This document shows positions 6,871-15,671 of a stretch of 32,450 bases of DNA, one piece after another. Made by a program: the position numbers and the translations under genes. The DNA is from Patescibacteria group bacterium (GTDB taxonomy: Bacteria > Patescibacteriota > Minisyncoccia > Phycocordibacterales > PALSA-1337): the NCBI GenBank assembly GCA_028865615.1, contig JAGWJT010000006.1, positions 1 through 32,450 on the forward strand, given 5' to 3'. The notes under the pieces are model-generated. The model saw only the letters and a list, made by a program, of their open reading frames with translations, made no database searches and was not told the DNA's origin. How positions within the stretch are numbered: the stretch's first letter is position 1; each line of letters begins with the position of its first letter.

Positions 6871-6888
6871 CATGGCATATAACTACAC

Positions 6889-6919
6889 CCATTGCCTAAA
6901 AAGCGGCTTGATATATAAT
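6889..6919 (+). promoter_or_regulatory. predicted promoter, copy 1, upstream of the SWIB gene
   Basis: ccattgcctaaaaagcggcttgatatataat; TTGCCT-N16-TATAAT; 27/31 identical to the element at 7300-7330. Confidence 0.6.
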
Positions 6920-7274: not shown

Positions 7275-7299
7275 GTCAATCTACTATCATGTTGACAAC

Positions 7300-7330
7300 C
7301 CATTGCCTAAAATATGGCTTAATATATAAT
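7300..7330 (+). promoter_or_regulatory. predicted promoter, copy 2, upstream of the HU gene
   Basis: ccattgcctaaaatatggcttaatatataat; near-identical to 6889-6919. Confidence 0.6.
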
Positions 7331-7406: not shown

Positions 7407-7679
7407 ATGAACAAAGCTAGCATTGTAGACGCAGTTCACGGAGTTCTCGGCGGGACCAAGGTCCAGGCTGAGCAAGCGGTCGAGACTATGATCAACACTA
7501 TCATCGATGCTCTGAAGAAGGGCGAAGAGGTTTCTATAGCAGGCCTCGGCATCTTCTCCGTCAAGCAGCGCGCCGCCCGTGAGGCCCGCAACCCCCGCAC
7601 CGGTGAAGCCATCAAGGTTCCGGCCATGAAGGTCCCCAAGTTCCGCGCCGCAAAGGCCCTAAAGGACGCGGTGAAATAA
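7407..7679 (+). CDS. hup: HU family DNA-binding protein
   Basis: MNKASIVDAVHG...GEEVSIAGLGIFSVKQRAAREARNPRTGEAIKVPAMKVPKFRAAKALKDAV. Confidence 0.96.
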   Translation: MNKASIVDAVHGVLGGTKVQAEQAVETMINTIIDALKKGEEVSIAGLGIFSVKQRAAREARNPRTGEAIKVPAMKVPKFRAAKALKDAVK

Positions 7680-7786: not shown

Positions 7787-7820
7787 AAAAGCCGCCCCAG
7801 CATGTCAAAGGGCGGCTTTT
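7787..7820. terminator. bidirectional terminator between HU (+) and the cas2-like gene (-)
   Basis: aaaagccgccc ... gggcggctttt: 11-bp inverted repeat with A/T flanks, convergent context. Confidence 0.8.
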
Positions 7821-7876
7821 GCTATCTCTGTCGCACAATATCCTTTGATTACCACCCTGCTGCAGAAGCACCGTTT

Positions 7877-8194
7877 TCAGGCCTTCTTTGACATTTGAAC
7901 GAGTTCGAACGGCTGGACATTTAATATGCTTCCCTTCAATCTCAAGCCTATCATATTCTCATTGAAGCATGACCTGCACATGGTTGCAAAGAATAACCTT
8001 TCCTTCTTCCCCGTGAACAGCCCTCTCAGCTTTGCCTCCATTTCCCTCCTCTCTTTTGCATACAATTCCCCCACGAAGACATGCTTGGTGATTGGCACTA
8101 GACCATAATCCTTGCAACATACCAACGCCCTATCGCGATGACGCCAATTGCACGTCTCCCAACCAACAAGCGTTATGTACGCCGGATAATTCAT
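7877..8194 (-). CDS. cas2: divergent Cas2-like protein (CRISPR adaptation subunit)
   Basis: 105 aa; KDYGLVPITKHVFVGEL...KERREMEAKLRGLFTGKKERLFFATMCRSC matches Cas2-type spacing (KDYGxxxxxxSVFEGxL ... LCxxC). Start overlaps the cas1 stop (ATGA). Confidence 0.68.
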   Translation of the reverse strand: MNYPAYITLVGWETCNWRHRDRALVCCKDYGLVPITKHVFVGELYAKERREMEAKLRGLFTGKKERLFFATMCRSCFNENMIGLRLKGSILNVQPFELVQMSKKA

Positions 8195-9231
8195 CTCCCT
8201 TCATCGGTAACCGGATTCTCTATAGGCAGGACGCCGGTCGTATCAAACGCCACATACTTGGATTCCCTGCCTGTGAAGTGCCTAGCCAGGGCCCGGATCT
8301 GATTCTCGATGATGCGCTTCATGGCGTATTCTTTGCCATTCCATCTTGCCTCTCGATAGATATGCTTCATGACGGCTTCCACGACCAGTGCCTTGCCTTC
8401 CGGCGAAAGTTGGTACTGATTCTTGTCTGTCTTCTCGAAATATTTTCTTTTTCCTATCTCTTTGCTCGCAAATATTGGAAATATGGCCATATCAACTATA
8501 GGCACGCGGAACTCTTCCACCAGATCTAGGACCAGGGCTGGTTTGCCATAGCGTTCGCTGTGATATAAGCCGAGATATGGGTCAAGACCGACATACAGAC
8601 ACGTGCGCTCCACTTCGTTGTAGAGGATACCATAGCCGTAATTGAGCATACTGTTGAATTTGTCGCGCCCTTGCGGGATGCGGCCCGGGAATCTGCATAT
8701 CTTACGAATGCAAGCGAAGTATCTATCAGCTATATATCCTTCAATGCCGAGCAATTGTTCTTTGCTCTTATCTGTAGCCGGAAGAAAATCAACCGAATCC
8801 AGGATAGTTTGGGCCTGCAAGAGCTCTTTGGAAAAATCTTTCTTGTATCGGTAACCAAGCAGTCGCATATGACTTATCTGATTGGCGCACTTCCCTTTCA
8901 CGAAGGCTCTTGCCAACTCGAATGACTTTTCCGGGTCGTTGGAAACTTCCAGCTGAGCTTTGCGCAAACTGGCCAAGCCTCTCGGTTCGCTAGAGAATAT
9001 TCTGCCAACCGGTTTGCCGAATGCGCCGAGATATACAATATCTACGTCGTGCTCGAGAGCCAATTGGACCGCGTTAGTGGTAAGAGACGCCGGGCGGAGG
9101 ACGACTATCTTGTCCAAACGGCGTATGGGATATTCCTTCTTCTCTTCAACTTTGGGGAACGACAATACGATGCGTTCACCGGAACATCCGATCTTGGTAC
9201 CGTAAGTATCTATAAGCAGGTCAGTTTTCAT
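8191..9231 (-). CDS. cas1: CRISPR-associated endonuclease/integrase Cas1
   Basis: GERIVLSFP..., VSLTT-like ASLTTNAVQLALEHDVDIVYL, GKPVGRI, LLGIEGYIADRYF (catalytic Glu), LNYGYGILYNEVERTCLYVGLDPYLGLYHSERYGKPALVLDLVEEFR (catalytic His and acidic residues). Confidence 0.95.
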   Translation of the reverse strand: MKTDLLIDTYGTKIGCSGERIVLSFPKVEEKKEYPIRRLDKIVVLRPASLTTNAVQLALEHDVDIVYLGAFGKPVGRIFSSEPRGLASLRKAQLEVSNDPEKSFELARAFVKGKCANQISHMRLLGYRYKKDFSKELLQAQTILDSVDFLPATDKSKEQLLGIEGYIADRYFACIRKICRFPGRIPQGRDKFNSMLNYGYGILYNEVERTCLYVGLDPYLGLYHSERYGKPALVLDLVEEFRVPIVDMAIFPIFASKEIGKRKYFEKTDKNQYQLSPEGKALVVEAVMKHIYREARWNGKEYAMKRIIENQIRALARHFTGRESKYVAFDTTGVLPIENPVTDEGR

Positions 9232-9264
9232 ATATGCTTGAATTAACTGCTAATTGACAGTTTA

Positions 9265-9293
9265 TTCATAACATACTCAAACGAACTTGTCAA
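9265..9293 (-). promoter_or_regulatory. predicted sigma70-type promoter for cas1-cas2
   Basis: Minus-strand TTGACA-N17-TATGAA between the tRNA-Gly 3' end and the cas1 ATG. Confidence 0.45.
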
Positions 9294-9295
9294 TG

Positions 9296-9366
9296 TGCGA
9301 GATACGGGAGTCGAACCCGTGACCACAGTTTGGAAAACTGTTATTTTACCGTTAAACTAATCTCGC
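9296..9366 (-). tRNA. tRNA-Gly(TCC)
   Basis: GCGAGAT...ACAGT-TTTCCAA-ACTGT...CGGGTTCGACTCCCG...ATCTCGC-A; full cloverleaf; no encoded CCA. Confidence 0.95.
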
Positions 9367-9401
9367 ATTTGCATCATCCTAGCAAAACCGCCCACACAAC
9401 G

Positions 9402-9770
9402 CTATGAAGCCGCCGAGCCTGGCGCTATGGTAGCGTTCGGCTCAAGCAGAGAGAACCCCGTCTCAGTCTTCACTGCAAGTATCATCCCCTGACTCTCCAA
9501 GCCTCGTATCATCCTCGGCTCCAGATTGGTCACGAACATGCACGTCTTGCCTACAAGCAATTGAGGATCCGGGAAATAAGCCGCTATACCGGAAATGATT
9601 TGCCTCCGGACCGGCTTGGAGACCTTCGTACCATCTTCCGCAACATCTTCCCTGTTCTCTGCAAAATCCACAGACAACCTGAACAACTTGTCCGTGTCAG
9701 GCACCTTTTCAGCACTCAATATCTTGCCGGCCTTTATCTCCACCTTTTTGAATTCGTCGTATGAAATCAT
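9402..9770 (-). CDS. tRNA-binding domain protein (Trbp111/CsaA/MetG-C-terminal-like OB fold)
   Basis: MISYDEFKKVEIKAGKILSAEKVPDTDKLFRLSVDF...RQIISGIAAYFPDPQLLVGKTCMFVTNLEPRMIRGLESQGMILA. Confidence 0.93.
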   Translation of the reverse strand: MISYDEFKKVEIKAGKILSAEKVPDTDKLFRLSVDFAENREDVAEDGTKVSKPVRRQIISGIAAYFPDPQLLVGKTCMFVTNLEPRMIRGLESQGMILAVKTETGFSLLEPNATIAPGSAAS

Positions 9771-9822
9771 TTTCTATATTCGTAGCATTCGTGCGATTAT
9801 TTGTAGATTCGCATTACCCTTG

Positions 9823-9895
9823 TCGGAGCGCCGGGATTCGAACCCGGAGTCACCTGTACCCAAAACAGGTATGTTAGCCGTTACACCACGCTCCG
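9823..9895 (-). tRNA. tRNA-Pro(TGG)
   Basis: CGGAGCG...CCTGT-TTTGGGT-ACAGG...CCGGGTTCGAATCCCGG...CGCTCCG-A; no encoded CCA. Confidence 0.94.
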
Positions 9896-9929
9896 GTTGG
9901 CCGCCATTCAGGCCGGCCGGCATATAGTA

Positions 9930-10316
9930 TCACAATATAACGTCTTTTATCCATTTCACCCTCGCTTTTCGCTTGTCCATATCCATATAAACACAAAGCA
10001 CATGAAAACAAAATTCAGCGTCAACAGGATGGCTGAACTCCATCATATAAGTCTTGACCATCCTGCTCATTTTCCTCATCTTTAGAGGATGCACATTGTC
10101 CTCTGGCCTATGAGAATCTGAAGATTCCGTATAATCCCCTTTGACCGTGACGCTTTTGACTTCAAAGAAATTCAATTTCCCGCCTTTTTGAGCTACTACG
10201 TCCAACTCCCCCCATCTTTTCTGGTAATTCCTAGCAACGATGTTAAAGCCGTTTCTTTCCAAGAATTTACACGCTATATCCTCGCCAATATTTCCTTTTG
10301 CACGCTTGTGAAGCAT
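9930..10316 (-). CDS. YraN/UPF0102 family protein (predicted endonuclease)
   Basis: GNIGEDIACKFLERNGFNIVARNYQKRWGELDVVAQKGGKLNFFEVKS. Confidence 0.9.
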   Translation of the reverse strand: MLHKRAKGNIGEDIACKFLERNGFNIVARNYQKRWGELDVVAQKGGKLNFFEVKSVTVKGDYTESSDSHRPEDNVHPLKMRKMSRMVKTYMMEFSHPVDAEFCFHVLCVYMDMDKRKARVKWIKDVIL

Positions 10317-10680: not shown

Positions 10681-10744
10681 AAAATTTCTAATTTTTAATT
10701 GACCTAATTTTTAGAAATTAGAAATTAGGTCAATTAGAAATTTT
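10681..10744. repeat. imperfect inverted repeat of an AT-rich 23-bp element
   Basis: Right arm reverse complement aaaatttctaattgacctaattt (10722-10744); left arm is the same with a 7-nt insertion. Another 21-nt exact copy at 15651-15671. Confidence 0.85.
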
Positions 10745-10746
10745 CA

Positions 10747-13811: not shown

Positions 13812-14741
13812 CTACTTCTTGCGATTATGGAACTCCTTGTGGACACGTTTCAGTTCCGCATCGGTAAAGTGAGTATATATCTGCGTAGTGGCTATATTGG
13901 AATGGCCCAATAACATCTGCACTGAACGCAGGTCGGCACCATTTCCGAGGAGATCGGTGGCAAAACAATGCCTTATGACGTGAGGGGTGACTTTCTTGCT
14001 TATGCCGGCTCTTATAGCGGCAAGCTTGACTATGCGCTCTACAGAGCGCTTGTCCAGCTTCAGGCCATCGTCCTTGTTGGCTGTCCTTGGACCCAGTTGT
14101 ATGAACAGCGCATCATCGACATCGGTGCGCTTTGCCAGGTACTTATTTACCGCTTTTCTGGCGTCGTCGGATATGAACACGACTCTGATTTTGTCGCCTT
14201 TGCCGCGGACGGAAAAGCTATCGGCGTCGAAGTCCAGATCTCTTGTAAGGGAACACAGCTCGGCTACGCGCAGGCCCGTAGAGAATAGGAGTTGCAATAT
14301 GGCATGATCACGCAAGGCTTTCAGGTCGTTGCCGTCCGGCTCGGCCAAAAGACGCCCGAGCTCCGACGGTGTTATCAGATCCAGCTGACGGTCCCCGACC
14401 TTGGCTAGTTCTATATTCTCGGGAGAAAGCGATCTTATACCGCGTTTTGCAAGGAATTTCAGGAAGGCGCGTATGGCGATCAGATAGTAGTTCTGGGTCT
14501 TTTTCTTGAGGGTGCCGCCTGGATTCTTTGTATCCCGTTTGTGGCTCGACTGGCGATTGAGCCACAAACGAAAATCCCGCACCATGTCTATGGTTATGTC
14601 TTCTGCGCTCTTCGGTTTGGCATATACGAGGAATCTGGAGATATAATCATCGTATACCTTGACCGTTCGTAGGGAACGGCCTTTCTCGATCTCTATATAT
14701 TCCAGGAATCGTTGCTTTTGGTCTTTTATATTGTGCGACAT
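13812..14741 (-). CDS. tyrosine recombinase, XerC/XerD-like
   Basis: N-terminal SAM-like core-binding domain; [56 protein letters not shown] (catalytic R...HxxR...Y). Confidence 0.95.
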
Positions 14742-15648: not shown

Positions 15649-15650
15649 GG

Positions 15651-15671
15651 AAAATTTCTAATTGACCTAAT
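15651..15671 (+). repeat. single copy of the aaaatttctaattgacctaat dispersed element
   Basis: 21/21 identical to the arm of the inverted repeat at 10722-10744 (reverse complement). Confidence 0.85.

Follow-up and report, generated by a model that had tools for sequence, protein, structure and literature searches.

CRISPR Cas1-Cas2 complexes are known to measure prespacers of tens of bp. In Patescibacteria, the type V-C/V-D mini-integrases are reduced adaptation modules that work for arrays of short spacers, with Cas12 as the effector. Outside CRISPR, the casposase, a homologue of Cas1, integrates in vitro a 1.2-kb gene lacking terminal inverted repeats (TIRs) and duplicates 15 bp (PMC7786333). 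Here we analyze a cas1-cas2 pair from a Patescibacteria group bacterium, found in a stretch of 32,450 nucleotides (the window). A repeat unit, R, lies beside the pair and is duplicated around gene-sized inserts in relatives. From the comparison of sequences, we think it likely that this is a compact mobile gene-capture module, integron-like and effector-less, in which R serves Cas1-Cas2 as the site for integrating gene-length DNA and is copied in the process. The evidence is comparative, and all of the genomes compared are MAGs.

The cas1-cas2 pair and its family

The features of the locus are as follows.

7407-7679, plus strand: HU gene (flank)
7787-7821, plus strand: HU transcription terminator (flank; from the sequence; kept with HU in relatives without cas genes)
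7830-7866, minus strand: repeat unit R, TCTGCAGCAGGGTGGTAATCAAAGGATATTGTGCGAC, 37 nt, presumed integration site (weight matrix; duplicated in relatives)
7877-8194, minus strand: divergent cas2, 105 aa (ATGA overlap with cas1)
8191-9231, minus strand: cas1, integrase of 346 aa whose active site is intact (PF01867, conserved residues)
9265-9293, minus strand: putative sigma-70-like cas1 promoter, TTGACA, 17 nt, TATGAA (by eye)
9295-9366, minus strand: tRNA-Gly(TCC) (flank; 3' end adjoins the module on the cas1 side)

An earlier note on this DNA had described a Cas1 with all conserved blocks, a Cas2-like ORF coupled to it by ATGA, and HU and tRNA-Gly as flanks, all of which we confirm. The Pfam match of Cas1 to PF01867 scores 235 bits and covers 281 of the 283 positions, and the PF01867/TIGR00287 match together with the catalytic E, H and D makes it a member of the Cas1 family. 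No substitution of E164, H224, D236, E239 or E240 occurs in the alignment of its relatives, and these residues align with LLGIEG, the H of GFLH and LAIDLMENFR in PDB 4n06. The cas2 product has no match in Pfam or NCBIfam, and is matched by PADLOC Cas2b at 1e-7. With a profile of the family, the best PDB matches are Cas2 proteins, weak when taken alone. An AlphaFold model predicted from the family alignment (pLDDT 78.5) also has Cas2 structures as its best PDB matches (Foldseek E 5e-5). The PADLOC match and the predicted model thus both point to the ferredoxin-like Cas2 fold. Strand 1 ends in a conserved GW or AW across the family (GW in the window), replacing the YD of nuclease-type Cas2, so that the Asp closing this strand is absent. 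This Asp is missing from some Cas2 proteins and is dispensable for integration.

On the cas1 side there is no terminal repeat or conserved R-like motif, only the putative promoter. It begins 1-2 nt past the 3' end of tRNA-Gly, and a TTGACA-type box is found 5' of cas1 in several members. At 9265-9293 this box overlaps a TTGACA...TGTCAA palindrome, possibly an operator; G707 has the palindrome too, and G403 has a similar one.

The cas1 at 8191-9231 is the sole Cas1 of its genome (G000; 710,699 b). The family has eight members, seven with an intact Cas1 and one (G027) with an internally deleted cas1, spread over several genera of one Patescibacteria class. Identity to the window copy is 83% in G015, 79% in G001, 73% in G707, 66% in G790, 61% in G403 and ~40% in G803. 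According to the ORF tables, cas1 in each intact relative is followed by a cas2 of the same type, with no effector gene adjoining. The family is rare: within the genus 4 of 35 genomes have it, with one of these copies broken, and of 387 genomes drawn evenly from the class 3 do. No relative was found in an IMG/VR scan with the window Cas1 as query. In a tree of Cas1 proteins, those of the family form a single clade (support 93/83 with G803, 100/99 without it), placed near type I/III-like Cas1.

Is the pair what remains of an ordinary CRISPR-Cas system, or an adaptation module acting in trans, with R as the only CRISPR repeat left? In favour of this, cas loci often occur in isolation (PMC5294841), R is as long as a CRISPR repeat and is placed after cas2 like an array, and the Cas1 groups with type I/III-like proteins. 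However, there is no CRISPR array in the window, and a 9-mer periodicity scan of the near-complete G000 genome (4.1 kb of contig C22 is N) found no short-spacer array. Among the PADLOC matches listed for the largest proteins of G000, where small effectors are less well covered and the same 4.1 kb are masked, there is no Cas effector, as the earlier note had said of the window. Two listings of 25 families each were used, and the families beyond the second have a single member and E above 4e-9. None of the seven intact copies has short spacers between R copies. Furthermore, dN of cas1 is 0.11-0.14 between congeners while dS is saturated; thus the intact copies are under purifying selection. We therefore regard a CRISPR remnant as very unlikely.

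These results also bear on the three options left by the earlier note. A module acting in trans for a distant array loses ground, since the genome scan found no array and no second Cas1. A relic is contradicted by seven intact orthologues at 40-83% identity with conserved catalytic residues, as well as by the dN values above. Broken copies in relatives, to which the earlier note had tied this option, come down to one: G027, a real relic, has lost Cas1 residues ~57-298 and with them all catalytic residues, while cas2 is kept. Because there is no distant array and no second Cas1, and the gene is not a relic, only the third option, a repurposed integrase, fits.

Two candidate arrays were rejected in the course of the scan. 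At L028 4820-4942 a dispersed ATTCGTAG / ATTCGTAGCATTCGTGCGATTATTCGTAGATTCGTAT element, with another copy at 9772-9815 of the window, is simply duplicated in tandem, and L064 3929-4174 consists of 83-bp tandem copies with CACAAAAGCACTT-type inverted repeats. A dispersed intergenic repeat, AATTTCTAATTGACCTAATT, is present in inverted copies at 10690-10745 and 15650-15671 of the window. Near-duplicate genes occur on small contigs (G000:C10 1041-1382; L034 and L039, uvrB-like; L012 and L068, ABC), which suggests that the G000 bin mixes two close strains.

The repeat unit and the sites of the module

R becomes visible only when relatives are compared, not from the window alone. The earlier statement that the flanks hold no repeat-spacer array therefore stands for short spacers, but has to be amended for the 37-nt unit at 7830-7866. 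This unit starts 10 nt past the cas2 stop, and the conserved block reaches 7869. R is found directly 3' of cas2 in all eight members, where the conserved element ends in RTTGTGYRAC. With a leave-one-out weight matrix the R site ranks first in all eight loci; the window R reaches 30.3 bits, and the next best site there has 7.4 bits. Conservation breaks off sharply at the last base, with pairwise identities of ~0.77 in the 3' half, 1.0 for the final AC and 0.29 in the next column. A hairpin was considered and rejected as a feature of R, since the palindrome GTYGCACAA..TTGTGCRAC of G001 and G015 is lost in the window, G707 and G027, and folding z-scores are weak. Distances between R sequences and between Cas1 proteins are not significantly correlated among seven members (Mantel r 0.36, p 0.22), a result that neither backs nor rules out co-evolution. 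A degenerate R (3' 23 nt, 2 mismatches) lies at 10177-10216 of L035 (G000:C24), on the right-hand border of a low-GC island (~8534-10216, GC 0.30-0.43) with small membrane-protein ORFs; this is suggestive of an old cassette, perhaps.

In the window, R is separated by 8 nt from the HU terminator, leaving no room for a cassette between R and the host flank. The window locus is thus in the zero-cassette state. The order HU, cas2, cas1, tRNA-Gly holds in the window, but this synteny, which the earlier note proposed to check, is not general, as the module lies elsewhere in G001 (between rny and HU), G015 and G027, always with R. At the site equivalent to that of the window, G027 is module-free, with HU, its terminator and then tRNA-Gly 68 nt on. 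The module moves, as shown by its different sites within one genus. In the window, G707, G790 and G403 it is oriented with cas1 towards the 3' end of a tRNA gene.

The interval between HU and tRNA-Gly is an insertion hotspot, and various genes are found there in most congeners. In G403 a large serine recombinase (L106 1980-3344) is located between tRNA-Gly and cas1 and is a possible vehicle of the module. The window also holds a XerC/D-like ORF (13812-14741; named by eye), unrelated to the module, and a promoter-like 33-nt repeat (6887-6919 and 7298-7330; 88% identical) upstream of SWIB and HU.

Gene-sized inserts between copies of R in relatives

R is perfectly duplicated (37-38 nt) around gene-sized inserts in three of the eight members, G001, G707 and G803. 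Two 38-nt copies in G001 enclose 443 nt, comprising a complete 93-aa gene with a ribosome-binding site and a terminator. In G707, inserts of 2,143 and 1,591 nt separate three copies of 37 nt that are identical to one another; on contig C13 of G707 a degraded fourth R with two mismatches adjoins an ordinary gene and looks, by analogy, like the degenerate trailer repeat of CRISPR arrays. No usable orthologue was available for the synteny of the G707 array ends within its family. In G803 two copies enclose 3,476 nt, and the GC content of this insert is 0.58, compared with 0.47 before R. Four other loci reach the contig end 0-465 nt past R. The G027 contig with cas1-cas2 (C5) stops at the last base of R; exactly 149 nt are common to C5 and C13, and C13 runs on. 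If this overlap is the k-mer of the assembler, varied sequences follow R in the population.

Could the copies have nothing to do with the integrase and be artefacts of assembly or repeats dispersed in the genome? Every genome is a MAG, and G000 does hold other dispersed exact repeats of 28-63 nt. However, the R copies (38, 37 and 37 nt) are the only exact direct repeats of at least 20 nt at loci L074, L079 and L196, and their sequences differ among these loci. Three independent assemblies with three R sequences thus contain the same 37-38-nt duplication starting beside cas2, for which the chance expectation is ~5e-15. R is also essentially confined to cas1-bearing genomes. We give this explanation almost no weight.

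The insert genes include a thymidylate synthase-like gene, dCTP deaminase, DUF1653 and unknown genes. PHROGs recognized only the thymidylate synthase, the dCTP deaminase and one weak match of unknown function, and PADLOC gave no match to the insert genes. In haloviruses, genes for dCTP deaminase and thymidylate synthase are adjacent, which is at most a hint of viral origin. Several insert genes run into R without a stop of their own and use stops inside or past R. Such truncation at the edge of R is expected if the inserted DNA consists of fragments and not of designed cassettes.

The main rival to gene capture by Cas1-Cas2 is that R is the attachment site of a site-specific recombinase (Xer or serine type) acting in trans, that the inserts are flanked by attL/attR-like copies, and that cas1-cas2 merely travels alongside. 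Site-specific integration would also leave a direct repeat of ~37 bp around an insert, the modules are often at tRNA 3' ends, and a large serine recombinase adjoins cas1 in G403. However, that is the only one of eight modules with a recombinase next to it, and it is on the cas1 side, away from R. No recombinase was recognized in the inserts, and terminal inverted repeats are not evident. R stays joined to cas2 in all eight loci despite their different genomic sites. In addition, R in cas1-less congeners does not exceed the control rate: searched in both directions, the short R pattern was found in only 2 of 13 such genomes, and its sole forward-type match (G018) was equalled by one in the reversed control. 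For these reasons we consider a recombinase acting in trans unlikely. Capture by Cas1-Cas2 has points against it too: just three of the eight loci show inserts, the ends of these inserts display neither a PAM-like nor a terminal motif, and the R and Cas1 distances are not significantly correlated.

Proposed gene capture and comparison with known systems

For gene capture by Cas1-Cas2 we propose the following course. The module would consist, in order, of promoter, cas1, cas2 and R. Cas1-Cas2 would attack both edges of R and join to them the two ends of a long DNA, by staggered strand transfer as in CRISPR adaptation, and gap repair would then duplicate R. The inserted DNA, gene-sized and at least partly foreign, would be placed directly 3' of cas2, and repeated insertion would build the cas1-cas2-R-cassette-R-cassette-R arrays of relatives. 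An RNA-guided effector would not be involved, and the benefit, if any, would come from the captured genes. The casposase provides the closest experimental support for insertion of kb-long DNA. Because CRISPR Cas1-Cas2 measures prespacers of tens of bp, insertions of such length would need a different handling of ends. We infer from sequence that the insertions are the work of Cas1-Cas2 itself and that the captured genes are used, and the origin of the inserted DNA likewise.

With slightly better than even confidence, we go further and suggest a mobile system of a categorically new kind, the Cas1-Cas2 integron, in which kb-scale phage or plasmid DNA would be captured at a self-carried 37-nt repeat into a gene-cassette array, serving as a gene-acquisition device for genome-reduced Patescibacteria. 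We found no description of such a system in the open-access full-text literature (PMC), and the CPR papers found there gave nothing on gene-sized arrays. If this is true, Cas1-Cas2 would act as a gene-capture integrase instead of writing memory, and would form a bridge between casposons, CRISPR and integrons. The system would allow one to test how insert length is set by Cas1-Cas2, and would suggest a route of gene acquisition for episymbiotic bacteria with small genomes. Cas1-Cas2 putting kb-long DNA into a fixed 37-bp site could also be a useful tool.

By the features compared, the system appears to be neither CRISPR, integron nor casposon, since it has no short spacers or effector, no IntI, and no TIRs or PolB. 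Like a CRISPR adaptation module, it has the Cas1 and Cas2 folds with the catalytic E, H and D, and a repeat of CRISPR length (37 nt) directly 3' of cas2, with identical 37-38-nt copies in three lineages. The identical repeats, the degenerate copy at the presumed trailer end and one duplication per insert are further likenesses. However, the inserts are 443-3,476 nt, whereas CRISPR spacers are some tens of nt; the module is without effector or processing genes, its Cas2 is without YD, and the palindrome of R is not conserved. The type V-C/V-D mini-integrases differ in that their arrays have short spacers and a Cas12 effector. With casposons the module shares a Cas1-type integrase outside CRISPR, and for the casposase, in vitro integration of kb-long DNA is possible even when TIRs are lacking (PMC7786333). 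Unlike a casposon, the module has Cas2, no PolB is found beside cas1 in the ORF tables, and TIRs are not evident; its duplicated target is 37 nt, always at the same site by cas2, compared with 14-15 nt at varied sites. Like an integron, it has a fixed insertion site beside the integrase gene, and tandem gene cassettes at a recurrent site (in G001, G707 and G803; none in the window). Unlike in an integron, an attC-like site is absent, Cas1-Cas2 replaces the IntI tyrosine recombinase, and it is the same R that would be copied from the platform.
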